Part shown: piece after piece, positions 18,338 to 57,804 of the stretch | How positions within the stretch are numbered: position 1 is the stretch's first letter | Layout of the letters: each line of letters begins with the position of its first letter | Assembly (NCBI RefSeq): GCF_029223525.1 | Contig: NZ_JARHTQ010000032.1 | Coordinates: forward strand, 1-64,000 | Direction of reading: 5' to 3' | Origin: Streptantibioticus ferralitis | Lineage (GTDB): Bacteria > Actinomycetota > Actinomycetes > Streptomycetales > Streptomycetaceae | Length of the DNA: 64,000 bases | Translations under genes and position numbers: made by a program | The notes under the pieces: model-generated | The model's database searches: none | The model's input: the letters and a program-made list of their open reading frames with translations, nothing else | What the model was told of the DNA's origin: nothing

Positions 18338-19675
18338 GTGGTGGAGGTCCACGGGACGGTGGCGGACGGCTTCGAGCCGGTCCGGGAGGCGTTCCGACAG
18401 GGGTTTGAGCAGCGCGGGGAGCGGGGGGCGGCGGTAGCCGTGCACCAGGACGGCCGCCTGGTCGTCGACCTGTGGGCCGGTGCCGCACGGGCCGACCAGC
18501 CCGAGGGCCCGCGCTGGGAGCGGGACACCGCGCAGATCATCCGGTCCGCGGGAAAGGGCCCGGCCGCCGCCTGCCTGCTTCTGCTGCACCAGCGCGGCCA
18601 GCTCGACCTGGACGCGCCGGTCGGCACCTACTGGCCGGAGTTCAAGGCGGCGGGCAAGGAACGCGCCCTCGTGCGCCATCTGCTCACCCACCGCGTCGGT
18701 GTGCCCGCCCTGGACACCCCGCTCACCGTCGCCCAGGCCCTGGACGGGGTCAGCGGGCCGCGCGCGGTCGCCGCGCAGCGCCCGCAGTGGCAGCCGGGCA
18801 CCGACCACGGCTACCACGCGCAGACGTTCAGCTGGCTGCTGGGCGAACTGGTGCTACGGGCCACCGGCCGCACCCTCGGCCAGTGGTTCGCCCAGGAGGT
18901 CGCCGGCCCGCTCGGCCTGGACCTGTGGTTCGGCCTGCCGCCGGATCGCACCGCACGGGTCGGCCGGGTCGCCGCCGTGGAACCACCGCCGGTACCCGCC
19001 GTGGCGGGCCTGCGCACCCGGCCCAAACGATCGGTCACCGAGGCGTACGCCGACCCCGAGTCGCTGACCCGGCGCGCCTTCGAGGCGATACTCCCGCCCG
19101 TCTCCCACCACCACCCTCAGCGGGGGCGCTCCGCGCCGCAGTTCCCTCTGCCCGTCTCCCACCACCACCCTCAGGAGGGGCGCTCCGCGGCGCAGTTCCC
19201 TCCGCCCGTCGCCCACCACGACCCTCAGCCGGGGCGCTTCGCGGCGCAGTTCCCGATGTCGGTCGACGAGAACGACCCCGCCTACCAGGCCGGCGAGTTG
19301 GCGGCCTCCAACGCCATCGCCACCGCCCGCTCCCTCTCCCGCTGCTACGCGGCGCTCACCACCGGCGTCGACGGCGCCCAGCCGCTGTTCACCCCGGCGA
19401 CGCTCACCGCCGCCCGCAGCCGGGAGTCCGACGGCCCCGACCGGGTGCTGGTGGTCAACACCCGGTTCGGTCACGGCTTCATGCTGCACGGTCCGTCCTG
19501 CCCGCTGCTCGCCCCCGGCTCCTTCGGTCACCCCGGCCGGGGCGGCTCGCTCGGCTTCGCCGACCCCGAAGCGGGCATCGGCTTCGGCTACGTCACCAAC
19601 GGACTGCAGAAGTCCGTGACCGCCGATCCGCGCGCACAGGCTCTGGTCCGCGCCGTGAGGTCCTGCCTACGCTGA
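18338..19675 (+). CDS. EstB/class C beta-lactamase-like serine hydrolase carrying the 54-bp repeat
   Basis: A 445-aa serine hydrolase of the beta-lactamase fold, probably an esterase or peptidase. The S-x-x-K motif is SAGK (Ser70, Lys73), the second motif is the Tyr of GYHAQTFSW, and HGFMLHG with FGHPGRGGSLGF gives the C-terminal active-site region. Residues 254-307 (PVSHHHPQRGRS-type repeats) are encoded by three tandem 54-bp units and interrupt the sequence between RRAFEAIL and SVDENDPAYQ, which are near-contiguous in the homologues I remember. The start is GTG 18338 or 18341, with GGGAG upstream; further upstream the frame has no similarity. No signal peptide is seen. Whether the insert affects activity cannot be judged. 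Confidence 0.88.
   Translation: MVEVHGTVADGFEPVREAFRQGFEQRGERGAAVAVHQDGRLVVDLWAGAARADQPEGPRWERDTAQIIRSAGKGPAAACLLLLHQRGQLDLDAPVGTYWPEFKAAGKERALVRHLLTHRVGVPALDTPLTVAQALDGVSGPRAVAAQRPQWQPGTDHGYHAQTFSWLLGELVLRATGRTLGQWFAQEVAGPLGLDLWFGLPPDRTARVGRVAAVEPPPVPAVAGLRTRPKRSVTEAYADPESLTRRAFEAILPPVSHHHPQRGRSAPQFPLPVSHHHPQEGRSAAQFPPPVAHHDPQPGRFAAQFPMSVDENDPAYQAGELAASNAIATARSLSRCYAALTTGVDGAQPLFTPATLTAARSRESDGPDRVLVVNTRFGHGFMLHGPSCPLLAPGSFGHPGRGGSLGFADPEAGIGFGYVTNGLQKSVTADPRAQALVRAVRSCLR
19097..19258 (+). repeat. Three tandem 54-bp ORF-tolerant repeats inside the serine hydrolase gene
   Basis: Copies start at 19097, 19151 and 19205, exactly 54 bp apart. Each opens CCCGTCTCCCACCACCACC (copy 3: CCCGTCGCCCACCACGACC) followed by CTCAG. 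The hairpin block is GGCGC-TCC-GCGCC in copy 1; copies 2 and 3 have one mismatch (3' arm GCGGC). The frame read is P-V-S-H-H-H-P-Q, shifted by one base relative to the copies in galE and the WHH-SUKH gene. Confidence 0.92.
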
Positions 19676-19679
19676 GCGC

Positions 19680-19850
19680 ATGACGCGATACGCCGGGTAC
19701 GGGGTGCTGGTCACCGGCGCCGGACAGGGCATCGGCGAGGCCGTCGCACGTCGCTTCGCGGCCGGGTGCCGGGGGCTTCGCCCCGGGCACCTTGTTCGGG
19801 GGCTGCGTCCCCGAGCCCCCGAGCTGACCGGGAGTTCGCGCCGGACCTGA
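19680..19850 (+). pseudogene. 5' fragment of a short-chain dehydrogenase gene
   Basis: The ATG at 19680 opens a frame whose first 29 residues are a good SDR N-terminus: GYGVLVTGAGQGIGEAVARR contains the TGxxxGIG cofactor motif. From about 19766 the sequence becomes a G/C palindrome and the frame reads meaningless Arg/Pro/Gly-rich sequence to a TGA at 19848. Nothing resembling the rest of an SDR follows in any frame before the penicillin-binding protein gene. It is therefore a truncated remnant whose 3' part has been replaced by palindromic DNA. Confidence 0.7.
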
Positions 19851-20031
19851 GTAGCCGCTGGGAGATTGTCGATCTGCGGTCAGGCTTCGTCCTCGGGCTT
19901 GGGATCGCTCGCTGGGGGGCCGCGCCTCCAACGTCCCATCAGCTCTGGGGCTTTGCCTGGGGGCCGGGCGGTCGTCCGGGGGCGAAGTCCCCGAACGCCC
20001 CTGTTCCGGGGCTTCGCCCCCGAAGCCCCGG
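19765..20031. repeat. Cluster of REP-like palindromes
   Basis: Several strong G/C stems follow each other: 19765-19791 around GGGGGCTTCGCCCC, 19796-19822 (TCGGGGGC / GCCCCCGA), and between 19966 and 20031 further units with GGGGGCGAAGTCCCC and GGGGCTTCGCCCCC. The recurring core is GGGGCTTCGCCCC. Such elements are frequent between streptomycete genes. Here they start exactly where the SDR remnant loses its coding character and end at the stop codon of the penicillin-binding protein gene. Confidence 0.7.
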
Positions 20032-21654
20032 TCAGTTCGCGGAAAGCAGGGCCGCGACGATCTTTCCGGCGAACTTGTAGCCCTCGCCGGTGTTCGGGAC
20101 GACCGCGGCCGCTGCGACGTCGTCGCGGTAGGCGAGGAACCAGCTGTTGGGCTTGGTCTGGCCGTCCACCTCCGCCGTGCCGGTCTTGGCGCCCACGTCG
20201 CCGCTCAGCGTGCCCACGGTCGGCGCGGCGGTGCCCTGGCGCGCCGTGAGCACCATCATCGAGCGCAGATCCGCGTCGACCGACGAGGGCAACTGCTGCG
20301 GAGCCTGTGCGATCTGCCGGTTGTCGACCGAGACCGGGACGATCACCGGCTGGTGGAAGACCCCGGACCTGGCGGTGGCCGCGACCGACGCCATGTCCAG
20401 CGGGTTCACCTGCACCTGGCCCTGACCGATCATGGTCATCGCCTTCTCCGACCCGCTGCCCACCGGAACCTTCCCGTCCCAGGACGGCACACCGGTCGAC
20501 CAGCTGAGGCCGAGGCCGAACACGTCATGTGCCTCGTTCTCCACCGCGCCGTCGGGCAGCACGTTCGCCGTGGAGATGAACGCGGTGTTGCAGGAGGCCG
20601 CGAAGTCCTGGGCGAGCGTGGCCCTGTCGATCTGCATGCCCTCCACGTTGTGGAAGCTGCGCCCGCCGTAGGAGATGGTCTTCGGGCAGTCAAGCGGCGT
20701 ACCGGGGGTGACCTTGCCGGTCGTCAGCAGGGTGGACGCGGTGATCACCTTGAAGGTGGAGCCGGGCGCGTAGGTGCCCATCATCGCCTTGTTGTAGCCG
20801 CCCGCCGGGTTGTCGGCGACGGCGAGCACGCCGCCGGTACTCGGCTGGATCGCGACCACCGCGGCGTCCGGGCCCTGTGTCGTGACCGCCTTCTCCGCCT
20901 GTGCCTGCAGGTTGGCGTCGATGGTGGTGCGCAGCGGCTTGCCCGGCTTGCCCTGGGAGAGCGGGTGCAGCGAGTCGCCCGCCTTGCCGTCGGCGCCCTT
21001 GACCCGGATGTCCATGCCCGGCGTGCCCTGCAGCGTGTTGCCGTACTTGGCCTGCAGCTCGGTGAGGATCCCGGCCAGCGACGGGTACTTGGCGGCGGTC
21101 AGCACCTGGCCGTTGCGGTCGACGGCGGTGACCGGGGGCGGGGTGCTGGACGGCGCGGCCTCCAGCGTCTGCCCGGCGGCCAGTTTGGGGTGGAGCACCG
21201 CGGGAGTCCACTTGACCACCGGTTTGCCCGAAGGGTCCCGCACCACGGTCAGCGCCGAGTCGTAGTCCCACGTGGAGTCCTGCCCGTCGTACGAGACACC
21301 GGCCCGTACCGAGAACGGGACGCGCGCGCCGGTCGCGGGCTTGTCCGTCAGCGTCAACCGGCTGACGTGCAGATCACTTCGATAGGAGGTCAGTTCGGCG
21401 GTCGCCTGAGATCCGTTGTCCGTCAGCGCGGCGGCCTTGGCGACATCGCCGGACGCCCATGCGGTGAGGAAGTCATGTGCGGCGGTGCGTACTTCGGCCG
21501 CGGACGGGGGAGGGGTCACCTTCGGGGCGGGCACGGCGTCGGCGGCCGGCTTGCTCGACACGCTCCGGTACAGGTCATATCCACCGAAGCCGGCAGCCGC
21601 GACCACCACGGCGACCGCACCACCGATCACGACGCCCTTGGTCGCTCGCTGCAT
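20032..21654 (-). CDS. Class B penicillin-binding protein (transpeptidase)
   Basis: A 540-aa peptidoglycan transpeptidase anchored by one N-terminal helix (residues about 8-30). Residues 50-170 form an NTF2-like MecA-N-type domain (FLTAWASGDVAKAAALT), followed by a dimerisation region and the transpeptidase domain. Catalytic motifs are STFK (in APGSTFKVI), SCN (SxN) and KTGTAEV. The architecture corresponds to the PbpA/MecA-like class B enzymes common in Streptomyces. ATG 21654 immediately precedes the membrane helix. It lies downstream of the O-mannosyltransferase gene on the same strand, with a 148-bp gap. It probably acts at the growing tip or during sporulation, but this is not determined by the sequence. 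Confidence 0.93.
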   Translation of the reverse strand: MQRATKGVVIGGAVAVVVAAAGFGGYDLYRSVSSKPAADAVPAPKVTPPPSAAEVRTAAHDFLTAWASGDVAKAAALTDNGSQATAELTSYRSDLHVSRLTLTDKPATGARVPFSVRAGVSYDGQDSTWDYDSALTVVRDPSGKPVVKWTPAVLHPKLAAGQTLEAAPSSTPPPVTAVDRNGQVLTAAKYPSLAGILTELQAKYGNTLQGTPGMDIRVKGADGKAGDSLHPLSQGKPGKPLRTTIDANLQAQAEKAVTTQGPDAAVVAIQPSTGGVLAVADNPAGGYNKAMMGTYAPGSTFKVITASTLLTTGKVTPGTPLDCPKTISYGGRSFHNVEGMQIDRATLAQDFAASCNTAFISTANVLPDGAVENEAHDVFGLGLSWSTGVPSWDGKVPVGSGSEKAMTMIGQGQVQVNPLDMASVAATARSGVFHQPVIVPVSVDNRQIAQAPQQLPSSVDADLRSMMVLTARQGTAAPTVGTLSGDVGAKTGTAEVDGQTKPNSWFLAYRDDVAAAAVVPNTGEGYKFAGKIVAALLSAN

Positions 21655-21802
21655 GTGTCCCTCCCCAACTCATCGCCTCCGCACCGACCGTCGAGGAGCG
21701 TGACGCGGGGGCACTCTATGGCACAGATGTGTCCAAGGGGTCAAGATTCCACAACTGGACGCAATCACTGCGTCATGCTCGGGCCGAAACCCGCCAGATC
21801 CA

Positions 21803-23542
21803 TCAGATCCAGGTATCCAGCCACATCCGGGCCCGCCAGGCGTCCATCGGGATCGTCATACCGGTGTAGACCGGGAAGAAGTAGATGAAGTTCCAGACGA
21901 TCAGCAGGACGAGCGTGCCCGCGCCCACCGCGCCCCACATCCGCCGTCGTTCGGTCGCACCGGCCGGGCCCAGCATCGCGCCCACCATCATGGCGACCGC
22001 CAGGCACAGGAACGGTACGAACACCACCGCGTAGAACAGGAAGATGGTCCGTTCCTGGTAGTTGAACCACGGCAGGTATCCCGCCGCGACCCCGCACAGG
22101 ATCGCACCGGCCCGCCAGTCGCGCCGCAACGCCCAGCGGAACAGCAGGAAGAGCAGCGCCAAGCAAGCCGCCCACCACAGCAGCGGAGTGCCCAGCGCCA
22201 GTACCTCACGGGCACAGCCGCCGGGGGCCGTACAACCGCTCTGCCCGCGCTTGGGCGACTCGTAGAAGTACGACACCGGGCGGCCCAGCACCAGCCAACT
22301 CCACGGGTTGGACTGGTAGGTGTGCGGCTGGGTCAGATGGATGTTGAAGTCGTACACCTGGTGCTGGTAATGCCACAGGGAGCGCAGTGGAGCCGGGATC
22401 CACGACCAGGTGCCGCCGCGGCCGTCCGCCCAGTGCCGGAAGTAGCCGTTGTCCGTGGCGAACCAGCCGCTCCACGAGGCGAGATAGGTGGCCAGGGCCA
22501 CCGGCACCAAGGACAGGAACGCCGGGCTCGCGTCGCGCCGCAGCATCGCCCGGAACGGGTGCGGGGCACCCGCCGCCCGGCGCGCACCGGCGTCCCACAG
22601 CACCGCCATGATCCCGAACGCCGCCAGATACGGCGCGCCGTTCCACTTCGTGGCGCAGGCCAGGCCCAGCAGTACGCCCGCCGCGATCCGCCACGGCCGC
22701 CAGCCGAGCCGGGTGCCGGCCGCGGCCCGCGCGTCCGGGCGGCCGTCCTCCGGCAGTGCGGCCGCCAACCGGGCCCGCGAGGCGTCCCGGTCGATCAGCA
22801 GCGCGCCGAACGCCGCCAGCACCCAGAACATCACGATCAGGTCGAGCAGCGAGGTGCGGCTCATCACGAACTGCAGCCCGTCCACCGCCATCAGGCCACC
22901 GGCCAGGCAGCCCAGGGCGGTCGACCGGAGTAGCCGCCGCCCGATCCGGCAGAGCATGAACACGGCCAGCGTCCCCAGCACCGCCACCGAGAAGCGCCAG
23001 CCGAACGGGGTCAGCCCGAAGAGCCACTCGCCGAGCGCGATCACCCACTTGCCCATGGGCGGGTGCACCACGTACGACGGGTCGACGCCCAGCGGAATGC
23101 GCTGTGGGTGGCCGAGGATCAGCTGGTTGGCGTTGTCGGGCCAGGCGCCCTCATAGCCGTGCTGGAGAAGCGCCCACGCGTCCTTGGCGTAGTACGTCTC
23201 GTCGAATATCACCGCACGCGGGCTGCCGAGGTGCCAGAAGCGGAGCGCTCCCGCCAGCAGCGCGACGAGCAGCGGTCCGGCCCAGCCGGACCAACGGGCC
23301 AGCCGGTCCGCTACCGCGGGGGTGAGCCCGACGGCCTGCCAGACCCTGGTCCGCGGTGCGGGGAAAGGGGCGATCAGGCGTTCGCGGGCGGTCCGCTGCC
23401 CGGCCCCGGCGTAGCCGAACCGGCGCAGGCGCTGCGCCCACGGGTTCGGTGCCTCGGGCGCGGGAGTCGCCCCCGCGGGAGGTGCGGCGTCAGTCGCGGT
23501 GTCACTGCTCACCGAGCCATCGTAGGGAACCGTTCCGCTCAC
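21803..23542 (-). CDS. pmt: Protein O-mannosyltransferase
   Basis: A 579-aa polytopic GT39 enzyme that transfers mannose from polyprenyl-phosphate-mannose to Ser/Thr of secreted proteins. The first extracytoplasmic loop contains the catalytic DETYYAKDAWALLQHGYE (DE motif), later loops have HPPMGKWVIALGE and MSRTSLLDL, and about ten membrane helices are visible. In S. coelicolor Pmt glycosylates the PstS protein that serves as the phiC31 receptor and many lipoproteins. GTG 23542 is used; GTG 23512 is an alternative because the first 50 residues are disordered. Divergent from rsmI, a neighbourhood conserved in actinobacteria as I recall. Confidence 0.95.
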   Translation of the reverse strand: MSGTVPYDGSVSSDTATDAAPPAGATPAPEAPNPWAQRLRRFGYAGAGQRTARERLIAPFPAPRTRVWQAVGLTPAVADRLARWSGWAGPLLVALLAGALRFWHLGSPRAVIFDETYYAKDAWALLQHGYEGAWPDNANQLILGHPQRIPLGVDPSYVVHPPMGKWVIALGEWLFGLTPFGWRFSVAVLGTLAVFMLCRIGRRLLRSTALGCLAGGLMAVDGLQFVMSRTSLLDLIVMFWVLAAFGALLIDRDASRARLAAALPEDGRPDARAAAGTRLGWRPWRIAAGVLLGLACATKWNGAPYLAAFGIMAVLWDAGARRAAGAPHPFRAMLRRDASPAFLSLVPVALATYLASWSGWFATDNGYFRHWADGRGGTWSWIPAPLRSLWHYQHQVYDFNIHLTQPHTYQSNPWSWLVLGRPVSYFYESPKRGQSGCTAPGGCAREVLALGTPLLWWAACLALLFLLFRWALRRDWRAGAILCGVAAGYLPWFNYQERTIFLFYAVVFVPFLCLAVAMMVGAMLGPAGATERRRMWGAVGAGTLVLLIVWNFIYFFPVYTGMTIPMDAWRARMWLDTWI

Positions 23543-23841
23543 GCTGGTGTCGCCGTTCGGGGAAATCGCCGTCCCGCCCGCCCCTTACCGGGACCTTTCG
23601 GGCGCCGGGGAGCTCGCCCGGCGTCGGGGCGATTGCCCGCCCGTCCACCCGTAACCGCCGGTCTTCGCGTGCCCTCGCGCCTGGTCGGCTTGGCTGCGCC
23701 GGGTTTCCGCGCTGCGGATGTGTTCGGAGGGATGGCCCGCCCTCCGCCGGTTGCCGCTGCCTTCGGGGTCGGTCGGTCTGTCACGGCGGTGGAAAACCCC
23801 GGGCGCCGGGGTGCGGGCTCGGGTAGGGGACACTGGTCGGC

Positions 23842-24687
23842 GTGAGCGGAACCCTCGTACTGGCCGGAACCCCGATCGGCGACCCGGAAGACGCGCCCCC
23901 GCGCCTGTCGGCGGAGCTGGTGGCGGCCGATGTGATCGCGGCGGAGGACACCCGGCGGCTGCGCCGCCTGACGGCCGCGCTCGGGGTGACCCCGGCCGGG
24001 CGGGTGGTCTCGTACTTCGAGGGCAACGAAAGCGCCCGCACCCCGGAACTGGTCGAGGCGCTCGCCGGGGGCAGCCGGGTGCTGCTGGTCACCGACGCCG
24101 GAATGCCGTCGGTCTCCGACCCCGGCTACCGCCTGGTGGCGGCGGCGGTCGAGCACGACATCCGGGTGACGGCCGTGCCCGGGCCGTCGGCCGTCCTCAC
24201 CGCGCTGGCGCTGTCCGGCCTGCCGGTGGACCGCTTCTGCTTCGAGGGCTTCCTTCCGCGCAAGACCGGCGAGCGCCTGACCCGGCTGCGGGAGGTCGCG
24301 GACGAACGCCGCACGCTGGTGTACTTCGAGGCCCCGCACCGCCTGGACGACACCCTCACCGCGATGGCGGAGGTCTTCGGCGCGGACCGCCGCGCCGCGG
24401 TCTGCCGCGAGCTGACCAAGACCTACGAGGAGGTCAAGCGCGGTCCGCTGAAGGACCTGGCGGCCTGGGCGGCCGAGGGCGTACGCGGCGAGATCACCGT
24501 GGTCGTCGAGGGCGCCCCGGCGGTGCCCCCGCAGGCGCTGGAACCGGCCGAGCTCGCCCGCCGGGTCGCGGTCCGGGAGTCCGCGGGCGAAGCCCGCAAG
24601 GCCGCCATCGCGGCCGTCGCCGCCGAGGCCGGAGTGCCGAAGCGCCAGGTGTTCGACGCCGTCGTGGCCGCCAAAACCGCCCGCTGA
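23842..24687 (+). CDS. rsmI: 16S rRNA (cytidine-1402-2'-O) methyltransferase RsmI
   Basis: A 281-aa SAM-dependent tetrapyrrole-methylase-fold enzyme that 2'-O-methylates C1402 of 16S rRNA. Signature stretches are LVLAGTPIGDPEDAP at the N-terminus, AAEDTRRLRRL, LVTDAGMPSVSDPGYRLV, AVPGPSAVLTAL and FEGFLPRK, all in the expected order. GTG start at 23842. The length matches RsmI/YraL. It faces the divergent pmt gene over a 299-bp gap in which I recognise no further gene. Confidence 0.96.
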   Translation: MSGTLVLAGTPIGDPEDAPPRLSAELVAADVIAAEDTRRLRRLTAALGVTPAGRVVSYFEGNESARTPELVEALAGGSRVLLVTDAGMPSVSDPGYRLVAAAVEHDIRVTAVPGPSAVLTALALSGLPVDRFCFEGFLPRKTGERLTRLREVADERRTLVYFEAPHRLDDTLTAMAEVFGADRRAAVCRELTKTYEEVKRGPLKDLAAWAAEGVRGEITVVVEGAPAVPPQALEPAELARRVAVRESAGEARKAAIAAVAAEAGVPKRQVFDAVVAAKTAR

Positions 24688-24748
24688 CCAGCGCCCCCGG
24701 CAGCCCGTCACAAGTCGCGGTAAAGGTCTAACGTGGACGGGTAAAGGC

Positions 24749-24884
24749 GCTGTGGCGAAAGCGTCGGCCACAGCCCACAAACAGCCCAAATCTGGCTCAA
24801 GAGACGGGAACCACTGCTGCGCCGCGCCATCGAGAGGCGTTCGCTGGTAGTGGGAAAGTCCCGCTCCGGACACCTTGTCCGGAG
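24749..24884 (+). promoter_or_regulatory. Structured 5' leader of the zinc-ribbon gene
   Basis: Two hairpins lie between rsmI and the ATG at 24901. The first pairs GCTGTGGC (24749-24756) with GCCACAGC (24767-24774). The second is CTCCGGAC-ACCTT-GTCCGGAG (24864-24884), ending 6 nt before the AGGAG. Between them CCACT and AGTGG can also pair. The spacing to the ribosome site would allow translational control. No known riboswitch consensus is matched. Confidence 0.4.
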
Positions 24885-24900
24885 GGCATCAGGAGCTGCC

Positions 24901-25383
24901 ATGAGCGAGGCCATCGGCACCCCGTACGGAGACCCCGCCCCCGGCTCGGCGTCGGCCGAGACCGTTCACGAGGCCTATGCGTTCGCGTGCTTGCGCTGCG
25001 GGCACGGATGGGAGCAGTCGTACGACATAGTGCACACCACCGACGAGACCGGTCGGACGACCGTCACCTACTACGACGCGGGTCATGCGCGAGTGCCCTC
25101 GCCGCTGACCCGACCGGTATGCCAGAACTGCGGCGGCCACACGGTCCGCATCATGCGGTCCGGGCGGGTGTCCGTCGCCCGCCGCTGGGATCCGATGATC
25201 CTGCCGTTCCCCGAGCAGTACGGGGCCGTCTCCGAGCGGCACGACGCCGCCTACGAAAGCGGTGGGCCCGACCAGGGTGCGTCCGGCGACTCGGCGGCCA
25301 AGCCGCGCCACCACTGGAGCCTCGCGGACCTCTTCCACCTCTTCCATCGCGGCCACGGCCGCGACCGGGACCGCGCGGCCTGA
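24901..25383 (+). CDS. Small zinc-ribbon hypothetical protein
   Basis: A 160-aa cytosolic protein of unknown function. Two CxxC knuckles, CLRCGHGWEQ near residue 30 and CQNCGGH near residue 78, frame about 45 residues with a hydrophobic DIVHTTDETGRTTVTYYDAG strand pair, a zinc-ribbon arrangement. The C-terminal third is charged and His-rich (HLFHRGHGRDRDR). ATG 24901 has AGGAG 5 nt upstream. It precedes tatD by 57 bp and may be cotranscribed. Conserved hypothetical in streptomycetes as far as I recall; no role can be assigned. Confidence 0.75.
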   Translation: MSEAIGTPYGDPAPGSASAETVHEAYAFACLRCGHGWEQSYDIVHTTDETGRTTVTYYDAGHARVPSPLTRPVCQNCGGHTVRIMRSGRVSVARRWDPMILPFPEQYGAVSERHDAAYESGGPDQGASGDSAAKPRHHWSLADLFHLFHRGHGRDRDRAA

Positions 25384-25440
25384 TCCGGTCGGCCACTCCC
25401 GCGTACCGCCCCCGGACACGGCGTCCGTAGACTCCGGGGC

Positions 25441-26337
25441 ATGGCGGCACAAGGATCCCCCAAGCAGGACAAGGCGGCGGCTCCGCCGCTCCCGGAGCCG
25501 TTGCGGGTACCGGTCGCCGATTCGCACACCCACCTGGACATGCAGGACGGCACGGTCGAGGAGGCCCTGGCCAAGGCCGCCTCGGTCGGTGTCACCACCC
25601 TGGTACAGGTCGGCTGCGACCTCGCCGGATCGCGCTGGGCGGCCGAAACCGCGGCCGCCCACGAGAGCGTGCACGCCACCGTGGCGCTGCACCCCAACGA
25701 GGCGCCGCGCATCGTCCACGGGGACCCGGACGGCTGGTCCCGGCAGGGCGCCAGGCAACCGGGCGGCCTCGCCGCCCTTGACGCGGCGCTGGAGGAGATC
25801 GCGGCGCTCGCCGCGCTCCCGCAGGTGCGCGGGGTCGGCGAGACCGGGCTCGACTACTTCCGTACCGGCCCCGACGGCGTCGAGGCGCAGACGTACTCCT
25901 TCCGCCGGCACGTCGAGATCGCCAAGCGGTACGACAAGGCGCTGGTCATCCACGATCGCGAGGCGCACGCGGACGTCCTGCGGGTGCTTGCGGAGGAGGG
26001 CGCTCCGCGGATCGTGGTCTTCCACTGCTACTCGGGCGACGCGCAGATGGCCAAGGTCTGTGCCGAGGCCGGGTACTACATGTCCTTCGCGGGCAACGTC
26101 ACCTTCAAGTCCGCGCAGCCGCTGCGCGACGCGCTGGCGGTCGCACCGCTCGACCTGCTGCTCGTGGAGACCGACGCGCCGTTCCTCACCCCTGCGCCGT
26201 ACCGGGGGCGGCCCAACGCGCCGTATCTGGTTCCGGTGACGCTGCGGGCGATGGCGGCGGCCAAGGGCGTCGACGAGGACGAGCTGGCCGCGGCCATCGG
26301 CGCCAACACCGCGCGGGCGTTCGGCTATGCGCCGTAA
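25441..26337 (+). CDS. tatD: TatD family metal-dependent deoxyribonuclease
   Basis: A 298-aa TIM-barrel hydrolase. The metal-binding motif DSHTHLD is near residue 27, GVGETGLDY supplies the bridging Glu near residue 132, VIHDREAHAD and VFHCYSGD give the barrel histidines, and LLVETDAPFLTP the final Asp. TatD enzymes are 3'-5' exonucleases acting on damaged or fragmented DNA. The first 20 residues are a Pro/Ala-rich extension. It sits immediately upstream of rpfB, rsmA and ispE, the classical actinobacterial order. Confidence 0.95.
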   Translation: MAAQGSPKQDKAAAPPLPEPLRVPVADSHTHLDMQDGTVEEALAKAASVGVTTLVQVGCDLAGSRWAAETAAAHESVHATVALHPNEAPRIVHGDPDGWSRQGARQPGGLAALDAALEEIAALAALPQVRGVGETGLDYFRTGPDGVEAQTYSFRRHVEIAKRYDKALVIHDREAHADVLRVLAEEGAPRIVVFHCYSGDAQMAKVCAEAGYYMSFAGNVTFKSAQPLRDALAVAPLDLLLVETDAPFLTPAPYRGRPNAPYLVPVTLRAMAAAKGVDEDELAAAIGANTARAFGYAP

Positions 26338-26456
26338 TTTTCCCGAACTTCCCCGATTTTCACTACACGGGGTGACATAGCCGCTTTGGAGAGTGGCGAC
26401 GGTGTTCGCTAGGGTCCTCCTCCCGACAACGGGGGAGCCGGACCTGTGGAGTCGTC

Positions 26457-38236: not shown

Positions 38237-39313
38237 GTGAGCAGCAGCGCCAGCAAGATTCTCGTCACCGGCGGGGCAGGCTACGTCGGCAGCGTCGTCG
38301 CCGCGCATCTCCTGGAGACGGGACACCAGGTCACCGTCCTCGACGACCTGTCCACCGGGCACCGCGAAGGGGTTCCGGCGGGCGCGGAGTTCATCGAGGG
38401 CCGCATCCAGGACGCCCGCGACGTCCTCGACCCCTCGTACGGCGCCGTACTGCACTTCGCCGCCTTCTCCCAGGTCGGCGAGTCCGTCGCGCACCCCGAG
38501 AAGTACTGGCGCAACAACGTCGGCGGCACGCTGGACCTGCTGGACGCCATGCGCCGGGCGGATGTGCGCACCCTGGTCTTCTCCTCCACCGCCGCCACCT
38601 ACGGCGAACCGGCGTCCGTCCCCATCACCGAGACCGACCCGACCGTTCCGACCAGCCCGTACGGAGCGTCGAAACTCGCCGTCGACCAGATGATCGGCGC
38701 CGAGTGCGCGGCGCACGGCCTGGCCGCCGTCTCCCTGCGGTACTTCAACGTCGCGGGCGCCTACGGGCCGTACGGCGAGCGGCACAACCCGGAGTCGCAT
38801 CTGATCCCGCTGGTTCTGCAAGTGGCCTCCGGTAAACGCGAATCGATCGCCATCTACGGTGACGACTACTCCACGCCGGACGGCACCTGCGTCCGCGACT
38901 ACATCCACGTCGCCGACCTCGCGGAAGCCCACCTGCTCGCCCTCGAAGCGGCCCGCCCGTCGCCCACCACCACCCTCAACGGAGACGCTGCGCGTCACGG
39001 CAATGCCCGCCCGTCGCCCACCACCACCCTCAGCGGAGACGCCGCGCGCCGCAGCGTCGAGCGCGGCGAACACCTCATCTGTAACCTCGGCAACGGCAAC
39101 GGCTTCTCCGTCCGCGAAGTCATCGAAACCGTACGGAAGACCACCGGACACCCGATCCCGGAAGTCGTCGCGCCCCGCCGGGCCGGCGACCCGGCGGTAC
39201 TCGTCGCCTCGGCCGAACGCGCCCGCACCCGGCTGGGCTGGAAACCATCCCGCGCCGACCTCGCCTCGATCGTCGAAGACGCGTGGGAGTTCGCGAAGGA
39301 GCACGGAAAGTGA
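38237..39313 (+). CDS. galE: UDP-glucose 4-epimerase carrying two 54-bp repeats
   Basis: A 358-aa SDR-family epimerase interconverting UDP-galactose and UDP-glucose. The NAD motif TGGAGYVGS is at residues 10-18, and the catalytic YGASK has Tyr142 and Lys146. GalE is normally about 320-330 aa; the excess is residues about 241-276 ([18 protein letters not shown], then [16 protein letters not shown]), encoded by two 54-bp units. They split HLLALEAA from [15 protein letters not shown], which are near-contiguous in homologues, a surface stretch between the sugar-binding domain elements. Its TGA overlaps the galK GTG. Whether the enzyme tolerates the insert is unknown; the frame is preserved. Confidence 0.95.
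38956..39063 (+). repeat. Two tandem 54-bp ORF-tolerant repeats inside galE
   Basis: Copies begin at 38956 and 39010. Both open with CCCGTCGCCCACCACCACC, then CTCAACGGA or CTCAGCGGA. The stem-loop is GACGC-TGC-GCGTC in copy 1 and GACGC-CGC-GCGCC (one A-C mismatch) in copy 2. The frame read is P-S-P-T-T-T-L. Confidence 0.93.
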
Positions 39314-49635: not shown

Positions 49636-49660
49636 GGGCTGCCGGCTCGGCATGCTTGTG

Positions 49661-49700: not shown

Positions 49701-49725
49701 GCGGTACGTTCCAGGAGAGGTGAGC

Positions 49726-50313: not shown

Positions 50314-50379
50314 CGGACGCGGTCGCCGTCGGCATGCGGCGGTTGACCGGGCGGCGGGCGATGGCCAAAGATCGCCCGC

Positions 50380-50883
50380 ATGGTCACCCGCACGGTCAAA
50401 CGGAGTCGTGCCCGCCGGATCGGCGAGAGCGCGTACGGGCTGCTGCTGCTCGGCAAGTTGTTGGTATTCGCCGCGGTGGTGCTGGTGGTGCTGGCCAGCG
50501 GGGCGTGGATGTCGTGGAGTTGGGGACAGGGCGCCTGGGCGTCGGGCCGTGAGCAGGGGGCGATGCGCGTGGTGTCGTGCGACGACAGCGTGTGTTCCGG
50601 GCCCTTCACACCGAGTGGTGCGGGTTCGCCGCGGGCGCGGGTGACCATCGACAAGTCGGTCACCAAGCGGACCGGGGAGACGATCGACGTGTGGGTCGTG
50701 CCCGGATCCGACGAGGTGGTGCGGACCGGGCTGCCGGGTATCGCGCACGCCTTGGTGCCGTTCGCCGGGGCGCTGCTGCTGGCGGCGCCGGTGATCGCGG
50801 CGGGGTTGCGGCTGCGGCGGGTGGCGTGGGGAGCGGTCGCGGCGGGGGCGGCGTTGCTGGTGGCGGCCTTCGCCCTCGGCTGA
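50380..50883 (+). CDS. Conserved two-helix membrane protein
   Basis: A 167-aa membrane protein of unknown function. A basic N-terminus (TRTVKRSRARRIGESA) leads into the first helix (LLLLGKLLVFAAVVLVVLA). The extracytoplasmic part has two Cys in VVSCDDSVCSGPF and a short basic stretch, and the C-terminus holds one or two further helices (ALVPFAGALLLAAPVIAA, WGAVAAGAALLVAAFALG). ATG 50380 lies 66 bp after pth, and it converges with ppc. No family name recognised. Confidence 0.75.
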   Translation: MVTRTVKRSRARRIGESAYGLLLLGKLLVFAAVVLVVLASGAWMSWSWGQGAWASGREQGAMRVVSCDDSVCSGPFTPSGAGSPRARVTIDKSVTKRTGETIDVWVVPGSDEVVRTGLPGIAHALVPFAGALLLAAPVIAAGLRLRRVAWGAVAAGAALLVAAFALG

Positions 50884-50908
50884 TCGCCGGGGGCGAAGGC
50901 CGGACGGG

Positions 50909-53659
50909 TCAGCCGGTGTTGCGCAGTCCGGCGGCGACGCCGTTGACGGTGAGCAGCAGGGCGCGGCCCAGGGCGGGGTCGGGTTCCTCGCCGGCTTCGA
51001 CTGCCTGCCGCTGCCGGTGCAGCAGTGCCACCTGGAGGTAGGAAATGGGGTCCAGGTAGGCGTCCCGCACATGGAAGGTCTGCTTCAACACCGGGTTGGA
51101 GTCGAGGAGTTCGGCTTCGCCGGTGAGGTGCAGGACCTCGTTCATGGTCAGTTCGTGCTCGGCCTCGATGGTGTCGAAGACGTGCTTGAGGTGGTCGGGC
51201 ACGAGGGTGTCGACGTAGTGGCGGGCGATGCGCAGGTCGGTCTTGGCCAGCGTCATCTCCACGTTGGACAGGAAGTTCCGGAAGAAGTGCCAGTGCTGCC
51301 GCATTTCGTCCAGCGTGGTGTCCAGGCCCGCTTCGCGCGCGGCCCTGAGGCCTGAGCCGACACCGAACCAGCCGGGGACGATCTGCCGGGACTGGGTCCA
51401 GCCGAACACCCACGGGATGGCCCGCAGCCCGTCGAGTCCGGCGCCCGAGTCCGGGCGGCGGGACGGGCGGGAGCCGAGGTGGAGTTCGGCGAGCTGGTCG
51501 ACGGGGGTGGCGGCGAAGAAGTAGGCGGGCAGGTCCGGGTCCTCGACCAGCCTGCGGTAGGCGGCGTGGGCGGCGTCGGAGATGTGGTCCATCGCGGCGT
51601 CCCAGCGGGCCAGCGCCTCTTCGGGCTGCCGGGGCGCGGTGTGCAGGGCGGAGGCCTGCAGGGTGGCGGCGACGGTCAGTTCCAGGTTCTCCCGGGCGAG
51701 TGAGGGGATCAGGTACTTGTCGGAGATGACCTCGCCCTGCTCGGTGACCTTGATCTCGCCCTCCAGGGTGCCCCAGGGCTGGGCGAGGATCGCCTCGTGG
51801 GTGGGGCCGCCGCCACGGCCCACGGTGCCGCCGCGGCCGTGGAAGAGGCGCAGCCGTACCCCGTAGCGGTGGGCGACGTCGCGCAGCCGCCGCTGGGCGC
51901 GGTGGATCTCCCACTGGCTGGTGGTGATGCCACCGAACTTGGAGGAGTCGGAGTAGCCGAGCATGACCTCCTGCACGTCGCCGCGGAGGGAGACGAGCTT
52001 GCGGTAGGAGGGGTCGGCGAGCATCTCGTCGAGGATGCGGTCGGCCTGCTGGAGTTCGTCGGTGGTCTCCAGCAGCGGCACGATGCCGATCCTGGCGACG
52101 CCGCCGTGCAGATCGATCAGCCCCGCTTCACGGGCGAGGACGGCGGCGGCGAACACGTCGTCGGCGCCCTGGCACATGGAGATGATGTACGACTCGACGA
52201 CCTCGGGGCCGAAGCGCTCGAACGCCTCGCGGATGGTGTGGAACACCCCGAGCGTCTTGGCGCCCGCGGCGTCCATCGGCGCGGGGGTGGGGGCGAGCGG
52301 GCGGCGGGAGCGCAGTTCCTTGGCGAGCAGCTTGCGCCGGTAGTCGCGCGGCATGTCCGCGTAGCGCCAGGACTCCTCGCCCAGGCGGTCGAACAGCTGG
52401 CCGAGGGCGTGGTGGTGGGCGTCGGCGTGCTCGCGGACGTCCATGGTGGCGAGCTGGAGGCCGAAGGAGGCGATGGTGCGCCGGACGCGCTCCAGGCGCC
52501 CGTCGGCGATCAGACCGCCGCGATGGGCACGCAGCGAGTCCTGGAGCAGGCTGAGGTCGTGCAGCAGCTCGCCGGTGCCGAGGTAGTCGCGGCCCGGCGC
52601 GTGTGCGGTGCCGGCGGCGAGCCGCTCCCGGGTGTTGATCAGCTTCTGCCGGATGCAGGTGGCCTTCAGCCGGTAGGGCTCCTCGGCGTTGAGCCGCTTG
52701 TAGCGCGGGCTGATCTCCGGCAGGTTGGCCAGGTCCTGGTCCAGGGAGGCGAGGAGCTCGTCGCTGGCACCGCAGTTGCGGATGGAGTTGGACAGTGCGG
52801 CGCGCAGGTCGTCGACGAGGGCGAGCGCGTCGTTGATCCCGTGTTCGTGCTGGAGGATCAGGACCTCCCAGGTCACCTGGGGGGTGACGTTGGGGTTGCC
52901 GTCGCGGTCACCGCCGATCCAGGTGCCGAAGGTGAGCGGGCGGGTGTCGGCGGGCAGCGGGGCGCCGACGCGCTCCAGTTCGGTGGCGAGGTCCTCCAGT
53001 ACGTCGCCGGCCGCGCCCTGGAACAGCTCGTCGAGGTAGTAGACGGCGTTGCGGGCCTCGTCGGCCGGCTCGGGGCGCACCACGCGCAGTTCGTCGGTCT
53101 GCCACAGCAGGTCGATGTTCTCGGCCAGCCGCAGGTCCTGGCGGCGGTGGTCACCGCCGGAGGCGTCCCGGGCCTCCAGCAGCGCGGCGATACGGCGCAG
53201 CTTGTTCAGTACGCTGCGGCGGGCCGCCTCGGTGGGGTGGGCGGTGAAGACCGGCCGTACGTTCAGGTGCTTGACGGTCTCGCGCAGGTGGTCGCGGTCC
53301 GCGTCCTTGAGCTGGTCGGCGGTGCGGGCCAGCAGACCGCCCTCGGCGGCGCGGTGGGCCCGCAGTTCGCGGCCGCGGTGCACCTGCTCGGTGATGTTCG
53401 CCAGGTGGAAGTAGGTGGAGAAGGCACGGACCAGCTTGGTGGCGGTCGGCAGGTCGGTCTCGCCGAGCAGCCGGGCGGCTGCTTCGCCATCGCTACGGGT
53501 CAGTGCCCGGACCCGCTCGACCAGGTCGAGCAGTTCCTGGCCCTCTTGGCGGACCAGCGTCTCCCCGAGCAGTTCTCCCAGGCGGCGGATGTCGGCGCGC
53601 AGGGCGGCGTTGTCCGCCGCGTGGTCTGTCGGGTCGGGCGTGGTGTCGGCGCTGCTCAC
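50909..53659 (-). CDS. ppc: Phosphoenolpyruvate carboxylase
   Basis: A 916-aa anaplerotic enzyme forming oxaloacetate from PEP and bicarbonate. The first active-site region is [15 protein letters not shown] (catalytic His), followed by [17 protein letters not shown]. The second signature is [19 protein letters not shown], then [20 protein letters not shown]. It ends [15 protein letters not shown], the conserved C-terminus. Full family length. GTG or ATG start at 53659. Divergent from the histidine kinase gene. Confidence 0.98.
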
Positions 53660-53875
53660 AGGTGCGGCTCCTTGGCAGGGAACGGCTGACGGTGCGGACC
53701 GCGCTGTCCGACGGGCACCAGGATATGCGCCGCCGCTGACGGCGGTCGCGGCGTCCGATGGGTGGGCAGCGGAGCGGTTTGCGCCGCCCGTTCTGTTCGC
53801 CCCACCTGCGCCGGTGGTGGGCGGGTACGGGCGGTGCCCGGCTGGTTCGGGTGCCGGGCCTTTAGGCTGACAGGT

Positions 53876-55189
53876 ATGACGATGACGGGGGTCACGGAGC
53901 CGGACGTGCCGGGAGGCGGTGCGCCCGGTGGGCCGTGGTGGTGGGCCAGACGGCGCAGCCTGGTACTGGATGCGTCACTGGCCGTGGTGTCAGCGGTGGA
54001 GTGCGCGGCGGAAGGTGTCTCGTTCGCGCACAGCAGCGGGATTCCGGTCACGCTGGGCATGGGCTTCGGGTTCGTGGTCGGCGCCACGCTGCTGTTGCGG
54101 CGGCGCTGGCCGATCGCGGTGGTGCTGATCGCGCTGGCGGTCACCCCGGCGCAGATGGGCCTGGTGCTGGGGGTGGCCAGCCTGTACACGCTGGCCGCGT
54201 CCGATGTGCCGCGGCGGATCATCGCCTCGCTGGCGGTGATGACCGGGGCCGGGACGCTGATCGTGGCGTTCATCCAGACGCATCACGACGTCGTGCGCCA
54301 TGGCAGCAGCCCGAGCGCCAAGTGGGGCGTGGTGGCGATCACGGTGCTGGTGGCGGTTGGCCTGACCGCGCCGCCGGTGCTGCTCGGCCTGTACGTGGGG
54401 GCGCGGCGGCGGCTGGTGGAGACGCTGCGGGAGCGGGCCGACGGTCTGGAGCGGGAGCTGTCGCTGCTGGCGGAGAAGGCGGGGGAGCGGGCCGAGCGGG
54501 CCCGTATCGAGGAGCGGACCCGGATCGCCCGCGAGATGCATGACGTGGTCGCGCACCGGGTGAGTCTGATGGTGGTGCACGCCTCGGCGCTGCGGTCGGT
54601 GGTGCGGGACGATCCGGACCGTGCGGTGGGCAGCGCGGAGCTGCTCGGTGACATGGGCCGCCAGGCGTTGAACGAGTTGCGGCAGATGCTGGGCGTACTG
54701 CGTACCGAACCGGCGGCGGGCGGGGCGGCGCGCCCGGCGGAGCCCGTGGTGCGGCCGGTGCCGGCGGTGACCGAGCGGTCGGCGGAACCGGACGGTGACG
54801 GTCCGTACCTGGCGCAGCTCGGTGTGCTGGTGGAGCAGTCGCGGGCGGCCGGAATGGCGGTGTCGCTGTCGGAGGAGGGTGACCGGCGGCCGTTGGCGGC
54901 GCCGGTCGAGCGGACCGCGTACCGGGTGGTGCAGGAGGCGCTGACCAACGTCCACAAGCACGCGGTCGGCGCCACGACGCTGGTACGCGTCGCGTACCGC
55001 GCCGAGGAGATAGCCGTCCTGGTGGAGAACGGCCCGCCCGACGGCCAGCCGTCGGCCGGGCTGCCCAGTGGGGGCAATGGCCTGGTCGGCATGAAGGAGC
55101 GGGTGTCCGCCCTGGGCGGCGGTTTTGTGGCGGGACCCAGCCGCAGCGGCGGGTTCCGGGTCTCCGCGGTCATTCCGGCCCGGGTCTGA
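53876..55189 (+). CDS. Orphan sensor histidine kinase (HisKA_3 type)
   Basis: A 437-aa NarX-type kinase. Five hydrophobic segments cover residues about 25-165 with short loops, so the sensing is probably intramembrane. The dimerisation/phosphorylation helix carries [18 protein letters not shown] with phosphoacceptor His222, and the ATPase domain has the N-box [15 protein letters not shown] and G-box [13 protein letters not shown] 53876 has no ribosome site and follows TTTAGGCTGACAGGT closely, so the mRNA may be leaderless. No response regulator is encoded next to it, unlike most members of the family. ATG 53882 is an alternative start. Confidence 0.9.
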
Positions 55190-55259
55190 ACCCGGGTTCG
55201 CGTCCGACGGGAGACCGCCGGTCGATGTGGCCGTCCCGGGGGGCCTCCCCCGGGACGGT

Positions 55260-55778
55260 TCAGTATCCGCTCACCGAAAGCCGAATGGGCCGGGCCCCGG
55301 TGACCAGGCCGGCCGCGGCCTGGTCGAAGGTCTCGCCCAGGTACCAGTCGCCGGTGTGGTCGATGGCGTAGACCCGCCCCTGCGCGTCGATGGCCAGATG
55401 CGCCTGGCCGTCGGACTCGATCCCCAGCGGGCATACCTCGGTGTCCAGCGCGCGGCCGAGGTCCGCGAAGGTACGGGCGAGGTGCAGCCCGCGCAGCGGG
55501 TCGACGACCAGCCCGGTCGGCGCGACCTCGCGTCCCTTCCCCTTGTGCGCCGGGATCGCCAGTTCGCCGAATTCCGCCCAGACCTCGACGGCGGCCGGGA
55601 AGACGGCGTGCCGGTGGCCGCCGGGTGAGACGTACCCGCGCAGCTCGTCGGCCCATATCTCGGCCTGCTTTATGTCCCAGCGGCTCGGCTGCCAGCCCGC
55701 CGCCCGCAGGGCGGCGTCCACGGTGTCCGGGAAGCGGGGGGTCGTGCCGCCGTCGCCGTCCATCGAGGTGCTTTGCAC
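55260..55778 (-). CDS. SUKH-3-type immunity-like protein
   Basis: A 172-aa cytosolic protein. After a short tail the sequence LRAAGWQPSRWDIKQAEIWAD, FPAAVEVWAEFGELAIP and LGIESDGQAHLAIDAQGRVY, then DWYLGETFDQA matches the SUKH-3 branch of the SUKH (SMI1/KNR4-like) superfamily, which mostly comprises toxin-neutralising proteins. GTG 55778 is chosen because AAGGAG lies 8 nt upstream; GTG 55787 would overlap the previous stop by 4 nt. It is translationally close-coupled to the deaminase gene upstream, suggesting they work as a pair. Confidence 0.75.
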   Translation of the reverse strand: MQSTSMDGDGGTTPRFPDTVDAALRAAGWQPSRWDIKQAEIWADELRGYVSPGGHRHAVFPAAVEVWAEFGELAIPAHKGKGREVAPTGLVVDPLRGLHLARTFADLGRALDTEVCPLGIESDGQAHLAIDAQGRVYAIDHTGDWYLGETFDQAAAGLVTGARPIRLSVSGY

Positions 55779-55783
55779 CGGGG

Positions 55784-56329
55784 TCACTCCTTGTCCTGGG
55801 TCGGGTCGACGGCGCGTACCCCGAAGTGGGCGAGCAGCGGGGCGCAGGTGCGGCACGGCGAGGCGTACGCCCCGTGCTCCGGGTCGCCGTCCTCGCGGAT
55901 CCGGCGGGCGGTGAGCTTGCTGTGCTTGAGGGCCTTGCGGGCTTCGCTGTGGCTGAGCGGTCTGCGGGCGGCGCGGCCGCTGCGCCCGGCGGCGAGGGCG
56001 GTCAGGAACCGGGACAGCAGTACGGGTTCCGGACATCGCCCGGTGGTGCGGGTGCGCTGCGCGATGGGCAGCCCGGCGAGGAACGCGGCCACCAGCGGAT
56101 GGTGTTCCGGCGGGGTGTCGCCCTTGGCGCCGGTGCAGGTCAGGGTTTCGCCGCGGACGGACAGGGCGGCGGCGACGGCGGGGAGGATGCCGTCGCGCCG
56201 GTGCCGCAGCACCGGCGGCGGACCGAGCGGGCGGGTTCCGGTACCACCGCCGCTGCTCCAGCTGAGCCGCGGATCGGTGGATATCGCCTCCGCCGTCGCG
56301 CCGGTTCGCGATTGTTGTGTTGTCTGCAA
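55784..56329 (-). CDS. YwqJ-like putative nucleic acid/nucleotide deaminase
   Basis: A protein of about 181 aa. After 40 disordered residues (TDPRLSWSSGGG) the core reads VLRHRRDGILPAVAAALSV, CTGAKGDTPPEHHPLVAAFL, GRCPEPVLLSRFLTAL and GAYASPCRTCAPLLAHFGV. The C-terminal PCRTC matches the zinc PCxxC motif of the deaminase superfamily, and the family is known from polymorphic toxins (YwqJ-related). The start is uncertain: TTG 56329 follows GGGAGGG, and the frame stays open upstream. No secretion signal is seen. It is followed directly by the SUKH-3 gene. Confidence 0.7.
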   Translation of the reverse strand: MQTTQQSRTGATAEAISTDPRLSWSSGGGTGTRPLGPPPVLRHRRDGILPAVAAALSVRGETLTCTGAKGDTPPEHHPLVAAFLAGLPIAQRTRTTGRCPEPVLLSRFLTALAAGRSGRAARRPLSHSEARKALKHSKLTARRIREDGDPEHGAYASPCRTCAPLLAHFGVRAVDPTQDKE

Positions 56330-56631
56330 GACCGTGCTTCCCTCCCGTGCATCCCCCGTTGAGAGGGCCAGCCTGCCAAATGTGCCTGTTGGTACGGAAG
56401 GCGGGCGTAAATACGGGAGATTCGTCACGTGACGGTGACGGGATTGTGGGGACGGTGACTGGGTTATGACGGTTTTCCATCCCAACCTGCCGCAACGCTC
56501 CCTCAACGCCACTGCCGTGACACGTCGTTGGCCGGGGCGTGACGTCCCGGCAGCGCAGGTGCCGGATCCGGGGTGTTGCCACACCCCATAGGCTGTGCTG
56601 CAAGCGACAGATCCATCAGGGGGCATCCGCC
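56330..56631. promoter_or_regulatory. Divergent control region of the SUKH/deaminase locus
   Basis: This 302-bp gap separates the leftward deaminase pair from the rightward WHH-SUKH pair. It contains the perfect 12-bp palindrome CGTCACGTGACG (56423-56434), followed by repeated GTGACGG, GACGGTGAC and TATGACGG. A shared regulator could act on both directions. Confidence 0.45.
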
Positions 56632-57804
56632 ATGACGACAGGTCGGCTCGGGGCGACGGCCGCCCCGCCGAACGCTGCCTATGCCGGGCAGGTCGTGCAC
56701 TTCCCGGACCCGATCCGGGCCGCCCGCTACCCGCAGGGCGTGTGGGTGGACGAACACGGCTATCCGGACTTCTCGCCTTATGCGCGAGCCGCCGCCGAGA
56801 TCGCCGAGCCCCCGGAGGGCTTCGGCGTCGACGAACTCCGGCTCACCGACTACGTATCGGCGAACGCCGCACTCCACCACGCGGGCCACGAGCTGTTCAC
56901 CCGCCCGTCGCCCACCACCACCCTCAACGGAGGCCCTGCGGGCCGCGGCGCCAATTCCGCGTCGCCCACCACCACCCTCAACGGAGGCCCTGCGGGCCGC
57001 GGCGCCAATTCCGCGTCGCCCACCACCACCCTCAACGGAGGCCCTGCGGGCCGCGGCGCCTATTCCGCGTCGCCGGTCGCCACCCCGCACGGCTGGACCT
57101 GGCACCACGTCGTCGGCAGCCGCCGAATGGAGCTGGTGCCGGTGGAGGTCAAGGCGCTGCTGCGGCACCACGGCGGGCTGGCGACGGCCGCGGCCGACCA
57201 GGACAAGCGCGGCACACGCCCGTTGCAGGAGACCCGGCCGGTGCACTTCGCGGTGTCAGAAGACGTCGACGCCGGCGAACCCGAGTCCGTGTTCGCAGCC
57301 CTCGGCGAGCGGCGGCTGCGCGAGGTCGAGGAGGACCTCGGCTACCGGCTGCCGGGTGCGTACCGCGGCTTCCTGAAGGCATCGGGCGGTCGCCCGGCGG
57401 TCGGCGTCGCGCTCGATCCCGACCTCGGACTCCTGATCGACCAGCCGTTCTTCGCGGTACGGGACGAAGCGGCCACCGATGACCTGCGGTACGCCAACAA
57501 GTGCCTGCGCGACCACCTCACCAAGGACTACCTGGGCATCGGATATGTGCAGGGCGGTCTGCTGGCGGTGAAGGTCAAGGGCGAGCGGATCGGCACGGTG
57601 TGGTTCTGTCCGTACGACGACGCGCGCGACACGAACGACTACTGGGACTCGCCGCAGCAGAGGGTCGGTTCGCTACTGCTGCCGTGCGGTGATGATTTCG
57701 ACGCGTTCCTGCTGCGACTCGCGGGCAATCCGCCGGAGTTGGAAACCGTGGCGAACCTGATGGTGGACGGCGGCTTCGCGCAGGCCGTCCCGGTGGAGGA
57801 GTGA
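56632..57804 (+). CDS. WHH-type nuclease domain fused to a SUKH-1 (SMI1/KNR4) domain, with 54-bp repeats
   Basis: A 390-aa protein. Residues 1-91 are a conserved leader (FPDPIRAARYPQGVW, PDFSPYARAAAEIAEPPEGF). Residues 92-145 are encoded by three 54-bp repeats ([18 protein letters not shown]). Then ATPHGWTWHHVVGSRRMEL, with RHHGG about 20 residues on, matches the WHH/HNH nuclease-toxin motif. Residues 205-380 are a SUKH-1 domain (VEEDLGYRLPGAYRGFLKASGG, VWFCPYDD, CGDDFDAFL). Homologues I remember run from the leader into TPHGWTWHH with only a few residues between. ATG 56632 has GGGGG upstream. Ten bases separate it from the next gene. Toxin-type and immunity-type domains in one chain imply a self-restrained or repurposed nuclease. 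Confidence 0.82.
   Translation: MTTGRLGATAAPPNAAYAGQVVHFPDPIRAARYPQGVWVDEHGYPDFSPYARAAAEIAEPPEGFGVDELRLTDYVSANAALHHAGHELFTRPSPTTTLNGGPAGRGANSASPTTTLNGGPAGRGANSASPTTTLNGGPAGRGAYSASPVATPHGWTWHHVVGSRRMELVPVEVKALLRHHGGLATAAADQDKRGTRPLQETRPVHFAVSEDVDAGEPESVFAALGERRLREVEEDLGYRLPGAYRGFLKASGGRPAVGVALDPDLGLLIDQPFFAVRDEAATDDLRYANKCLRDHLTKDYLGIGYVQGGLLAVKVKGERIGTVWFCPYDDARDTNDYWDSPQQRVGSLLLPCGDDFDAFLLRLAGNPPELETVANLMVDGGFAQAVPVEE
56904..57065 (+). repeat. Three tandem 54-bp ORF-tolerant repeats inside the WHH-SUKH gene
   Basis: Copies start at 56904, 56958 and 57012. They are almost identical: (G)TCGCCCACCACCACC, CTCAACGGA, the stem-loop GGCCC-TGC-GGGCC, then GCGGCGCC and AATTCCGC. The near identity suggests recent tandem duplication. 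The frame read is S-P-T-T-T-L-N-G, as in galE. Confidence 0.95.

Follow-up and report, generated by a model that had tools for sequence, protein, structure and literature searches.

A 54-nt MIRU/REP-like repeat interspersed within and between genes of Streptantibioticus ferralitis and its relatives

The window analysed here is a stretch of 64,000 nt on contig C36 of the draft genome of Streptantibioticus ferralitis (8.8 Mb, hereafter G000). It carries three tandem arrays on the forward strand: three units (162 nt) at 19092..19253, in the gene of a serine hydrolase with a beta-lactamase fold (called ORF 18227-19675, +), two units (108 nt) at 38951..39058, in galE (38237-39313, +), and three units (162 nt) at 56899..57060, in a WHH/SUKH gene (56632-57804, +). 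Both the sequence itself and TRF gave eight units with a period of 54 and 0% indels, which confirmed the original prediction of eight 54-bp units lying in frame in these three genes. When up to three mismatches are allowed, the core CGTCGCCCACCACCACCCTCA has nine matches in the window, eight of which fall within the arrays, and none in 100 shuffles. The ninth match (9583-9603, minus strand) is part of a weaker, decayed single unit at about 9557..9610 (minus strand, 42.3 bits), located where the start codon of an alpha/beta-hydrolase gene (9557-10528, +) was called; the ATG of this gene and the stop of the ORF 8070-9560 overlap as ATGA. At this copy, the alignment with one congener (G001) reaches only 9547, and in another (G002) the downstream sequence differs.

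The reading frame of the serine hydrolase is 17948/18227-19675, which gave a Pfam Beta-lactamase match; the ORF 18472-19683, in another frame, has no Pfam match. The unit is read as PPVSHHHPQ... in the hydrolase and in another frame in galE and in the SUKH gene, a difference that had been claimed beforehand and that the translations bear out. In GalE, the insert falls in a loop, at a place where 5 residues of PDB 2c20 are left unaligned.

The unit is composed of a nearly invariant left half (CCCGTCGCCCACCACCACCCTCA) and of a covarying hairpin. A single copy would measure about 51 nt and comprises this half (approximately GCCCGCCCGTCGCCCACCACCACCCTCAACGGAG, the opposite strand being rich in G) followed by the hairpin, 13 nt long with a 5-bp stem. 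The repeat had been described as a palindromic element; this holds for its 3' third only, whereas the whole unit, in which the hairpin of 13 nt follows the conserved half, is not a palindrome. The stem is paired in 89.2% of the cells (26 units), and 22 cells are changed on both sides, as compared to 7.0 after shuffling; none of 500 shuffles reached 22, and a slid stem gave at most 7. When the number of pairs is taken alone, four stem pairs show a double change, a value equalled in 40 of 500 shuffles. In the hairpin of the first galE unit (38984..38996, +; GACGC-TGC-GCGTC), an arm pair is changed on both sides with respect to the common GGCGC-NNN-GCGCC, and the first SUKH unit has GGCCC-TGC-GGGCC (56932..56944, +). 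The folding energy was no better than that of shuffles on either strand. As inspection of the alignment revealed, the two ends of the unit are not mutual inverted repeats, and the terminal inverted repeats that are a trait of MITEs are absent. The covarying arms may derive from recognition of the folded strand or, following an established idea, template switching may correct one arm from the other. A separate observation concerns the bPH_11 gene (survey of 25 loci, 7 of which were unreadable with the motif used), where the host sequence resembles part of the hairpin, a likeness that the element model leaves unexplained.

A covariance model of the unit was used to search genomes. With a match threshold of E up to 0.01, it found 90 matches in G000, and 55 and 77 in two congeners. 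At least one match was present in 32 of 41 genomes, own genome included, although single weak matches may be due to chance. In a class-wide draw of 394 genomes (own included), at least 44 gave a match with E up to 1e-4, distributed over four families and 8 of the 138 genera; these counts are lower bounds, because 14 candidates were scored per genome. An exact 31-mer is shared by Streptomyces, Streptantibioticus, Actinacidiphila, Amycolatopsis and Allosalinactinospora. Spread by plasmids or phages was rejected, since at E 1e-5 the consensus matched a single record among 72,556 from plasmids and none among 50,697 from phages. In G000, 82 of the 90 units were grouped into 49 arrays, 33 of which are single units, the 8 weakest isolated matches being left out. 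Units of the same array are 0.91 identical, and units of different arrays 0.74.

The arrays were then compared with the corresponding sites of relatives. The hydrolase array is missing from all eight aligned orthologues, and the galE array from all six, where the two congeners retain 15 nt that the remaining four lack. The SUKH array is missing from four of six orthologues, with one decayed unit in G001 and a remnant in G002. All three arrays are absent in orthologues of other genera. The orthologue alignment also bore out the expectation that the protein segments flanking the inserts are contiguous in homologues. Outside the window, 34 of 45 arrays, namely all that reached a profile score of 24, were anchored, and a site was called empty when no unit was detected and the net difference lay between the array length -12 and +30. 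According to this rule, G001 was empty at 8 sites, occupied at 12, degenerate at 2 and partial or complex at 12; the corresponding numbers for G002 were 20, 8, 2 and 4. Twenty of the 34 sites were empty in G001 or G002. In G007, which belongs to another genus, 12 sites could be read, of which 8 were empty, 2 occupied and 2 complex. At six sites G002 and G007 are both empty, which favours gain in the G000 lineage. Two sites at which G007 carries the element and G002 is empty require precise loss or re-insertion.

The net difference is exactly 54 nt in the aroB, PAP2 and Cons_hypoth95 genes; the other single-copy ORF sites called empty differ by 57, 60 (scpB) or 66 nt, all values divisible by three. 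When empty sites were read base by base, the unit sequence was not found in them. At one site (L215), two units are present in G000, four model matches in G001 and none in G002 and G007. The repeat is dispersed, it is present in some congeners and absent from others, the differences are frame-compatible steps, and its copy number changes in place.

ORFs and gene starts were assigned with a purpose-written caller based on codon usage. Of the 49 arrays, 28 lie outside called ORFs and 21 inside, 15 in sense and 6 in antisense orientation; C19 and 9557, two copies at start codons, are among the latter. Of 65 good units, 61, 63 and 64 are open in the respective sense frames, and 49, 11 and 48 in the antisense frames. 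All five arrays with at least two units inside ORFs are spaced by 54 (core positions); outside ORFs, 5 of 11 have a spacing that is not divisible by three (53, 53, 56, 52/51 and 55). Of the 21 host proteins, 18 were tested, and all 18 match a Pfam family at 1e-5 or better. They comprise a tRNA synthetase, an aminotransferase, a sortase, SMC, an acetate kinase, a Mrp-type NTPase, a dehydroquinate synthase, a CobB/CobQ-like (purQ-like) amidotransferase, ScpB, a Mur ligase, a protein with a beta-lactamase fold, an epimerase, the WHH/SUKH protein, an abhydrolase and others. With 90 matches in G000 and orthologues that are devoid of the arrays, the original proposal of a dispersed DNA element tolerated in ORFs is supported. 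Neither of the two outcomes that had been named as arguments against mobility, the same residues at the same positions in orthologues across the genus or a lack of further copies in the genome, was obtained. The further contention that it is DNA and not a protein motif needs an amendment, because a single frame is used by 12 of the 15 copies that lie in ORFs in sense orientation (p 0.0003), so that selection on the protein is also visible.

Evidence on the insertion event comes from the flanks. In three genomes (for G001 and G002, arrays in the fetched stretches only), the flanking 3-mers are identical at 15 of 89 arrays, as compared to 3.1 in permuted data, with a maximum of 10 in 2000 permutations. 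The excess was maintained when orthologous duplicates were dropped (13 of 75 vs. 2.6) and when any CAT was left out (8 of 74 vs. 1.7, p 0.0002). Since the 3-mers differ in 74 of the 89 flank pairs, the duplication is statistical and does not hold site by site. A 4-nt duplication was rejected: the first of four positions shows no excess (22 vs. 23.0), so that 3 nt fits better. An element of 51 nt together with 3 nt of duplicated target gives the best reading of the event, 54 nt or 18 codons, the duplication being suggested by the flank statistics.

Arrays are frequent near gene starts. In fact, 18 of 49 are no more than 25 bp away from a called start, as compared to 9.5% of 15,953 random positions (p about 2.5e-7); intergenic location accounts for part of this enrichment. 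Six of the 49 G000 arrays form a start class, in which element and gene have opposite orientations and the far end of the element is CAT. Read on the gene strand, these copies consist of ATG, 17 element codons and then the old gene, and are open in 6 of 6. Five of them have a purine-rich stretch resembling a Shine-Dalgarno sequence ahead of the ATG (C55 is weak), and in each of the six, the new ATG and the TGA of the ORF called upstream overlap as ATGA. CAT is present at both ends in four, the exceptions being C19 and 9557. The same arrangement is seen in five further copies of G001 and G002, one pair being orthologous to C55, which brings the copies open into the old gene to 11 of 11; two other CAT hits of the G001/G002 scan (L270 and L284) run into a stop at codon 7 and 74, respectively. 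At C14:84535, the ATG is single in the empty sites of G001, G002 and G007.

The MIRU/REP-like element family is real. We consider it probable that it is best explained as a short, non-autonomous, interspersed family of actinobacterial elements, with about 51 nt of its own and a target duplication of about 3 nt. Insertion would duplicate the target triplet and add 18 codons, a net length that several sites show. Because the sense strand rarely has a stop in any frame, copies survive inside ORFs, where most of them would be read as a segment rich in P, S, T and G. A distinct class would insert antisense on start codons, so that the duplicated ATG becomes the one next to the ribosome-binding site, while the old gene resumes in frame 18 codons later. 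Arrays probably change their copy number in place by slippage or unequal recombination, and movement would take place in trans, by an enzyme recognising the folded strand. A bolder version, which we put forward tentatively, is that of a translation-compatible mobile element: start-codon targets, 3-nt duplication and 51-nt length would together keep the frame, so that even housekeeping genes are colonised, and the mover might be a not-yet-recognised, non-Y1 enzyme that reads either the G-rich half or the hairpin with its covarying arms.

A conserved regulatory or RNA element that is not mobile, such as an attenuator, a terminator or a device for translation control near gene starts, would account for both the enrichment at called starts and the covariation of the hairpin. 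However, positions differ among congeners, more than half of the anchored sites being empty in one of them, and copies occur in unrelated ORFs in both orientations. Moreover, the sole Rfam match at gathering score in the window is a tRNA, and a known RNA family was therefore rejected. We regard this alternative as unlikely, even though a function may have been acquired at single places.

Mobilisation by a Y1 (RAYT) transposase, in the manner of REP/REPIN-type elements, is somewhat less plausible still. The repeat is a short hairpin element of high copy number, found both between genes and in ORFs, and Y1 genes are present in some carriers: G023, with 46 element matches, has five, G022 has 18 matches and 6 of 16 further carriers have some. 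Nevertheless, Y1_Tnp (PF01797) had no match in G000, G001 and G002, which are the three richest genomes, nor in G009 (34 element matches) and in the other 10 of the 16 further carriers, and for all of these a RAYT origin is unsupported; it may still apply to G023 and the other carriers endowed with Y1 genes. In addition, the arrays are head-to-tail and the stem bears neither a GTAG nor a CGTC tag.

That the repeat is a functional protein segment, namely a linker or tandem-repeat motif kept by protein selection, is very improbable. The frame shared by most sense copies speaks in its favour, and the same frame is used by all six sense ORF units (5 arrays) found in 16 stretches from other, distant families; yet more than half of the arrays lie outside called ORFs, other frames and the antisense strand are also used, and the segment is missing from orthologous proteins. 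The non-coding copies refute the protein segment as the main cause; the purging of bad frames would have to explain the frame bias. Local tandem duplication of host sequence without dispersal, which would fit the variable copy number at L215 and the likeness of units within arrays, has hardly any probability as the sole process and is refuted as such by the same sequence at 49 separate places, by the 33 single units and by empty sites devoid of the unit, and it survives as a part of the explanation by an interspersed element.

If the interspersed-element explanation is correct, actinobacteria would possess a counterpart of the rickettsial palindromic elements (RPEs) with MIRU-like behaviour, in Streptomycetaceae and several other families, which would have added 18-codon segments to SMC, dehydroquinate synthase, the PurQ-like amidotransferase, ScpB and GalE. 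The many natural before/after pairs could be used to study how proteins absorb foreign segments, and the family would be a natural case of a repeat spreading without a visible transposase. It is also a warning for annotation, as such stretches would be encoded by the element and should not be taken for conserved domains or native N-termini.

The original prediction named RPEs as the precedent and knew of no actinobacterial equivalent. This did not hold, since mycobacterial MIRUs (PMC12548453) and REPs in ORFs (PMC3733652) also precede the element described here. A description of this element was not found in the open-licence full text searched, including searches with the core sequence on both strands and with the peptide. 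An account of intrastrand triplexes (PMC4666352) has no apparent bearing on it.

GTAG/CGTC REPs are described as hairpin repeats, some of which are located in ORFs of unrelated proteins and at N-termini, and CGTC-tagged REPs occur without an associated transposase (PMC3733652). Actinobacteria are not among the REP phyla listed in passages of that article, and the word has no match in its main text. The REP tag is located at the stem end, whereas here the bases preceding the stem are GGAG-like and a CGTC, although conserved, is about 22 nt away. The head-to-tail arrangement also differs from that of REP dimers, which the same source reports as mostly not head-to-tail, and the Y1 transposase that accompanies RAYT-type REPs in the same genome is found in carriers such as G023 but not in the genomes richest in the element.

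RPEs, according to the available description (PMC3767692), sit in pre-existing ORFs with the frame intact, are 100-150 bp long, occur in Rickettsia and Wolbachia and have insert positions that are mostly conserved among spotted-fever genomes. Insertion into ORFs with the frame kept is shared by our element, with 21 of 49 arrays in called ORFs and a Pfam domain in every tested host. In contrast, its unit is 54 nt and its positions differ between congeners.

MIRUs are reported to be apparently mobile actinobacterial repeats that insert at start codons, where a 4-nt start/stop overlap keeps translation coupled and the internal ORF of the MIRU becomes coupled to the downstream gene (PMC12548453). 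Compared by description and not by sequence, the likeness consists in short dispersed actinobacterial repeats at start codons and in tandem copy-number variation, which in MIRUs is exploited for MIRU-VNTR typing. Start-codon insertion with the 4-nt overlap is seen in the six start-class arrays of G000, most other arrays being outside this class. The MIRU internal ORF ends at the coupled downstream gene, whereas all 11 start-class copies run on into the old gene; the 54-nt step is here an in-frame N-terminal extension, and many copies lie inside ORFs. The element departs from REPs in tag and, in these genomes, in Y1 transposase, and from RPEs in length, and its start copies are in-frame extensions. 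Hence it behaves like a MIRU and is tolerated like an RPE, with membership established in neither group; its nearest kinds are mycobacterial MIRUs, ORF-dwelling REPs and RPEs, and among these MIRUs come nearest in behaviour.

Copies of the element were found in frame, in several genera, within a bacterial PH-like protein (PF25362; loci L098, L103, L107, L110, L112, L378, L379 and L383). These in-frame copies lie in the linker of the protein, at what seem to be two different positions. When 25 loci from relatives were inspected for the element in this protein, it was present in 3 and absent from 15, the remaining 7 being unreadable. At one of the PF25362 loci, L383, each unit is flanked by host bases that resemble the hairpin, forming an 18-nt repeat.

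Two further sites (loci L223 and L227, with L361, L338, L363 and L342) are occupied both in the source genome and in G007, which belongs to another genus, and are empty in the congener G002. This distribution implies either that the element was precisely lost or that it inserted more than once into the same position.

In the source genome, an SMC gene and an scpB gene (L213 and L224) contain one copy of the element each, a co-occurrence that is possibly a coincidence. The longest array of this genome (L230, contig C25, positions 83400-83741) is located between genes and consists of six units with a period of 57, in which the hairpin region is longer. In the carrier genome G023 (L053, contig C196, position 8371), the 5' end of one unit is repeated in inverted orientation directly after that unit, so that the two together form a near-palindrome.
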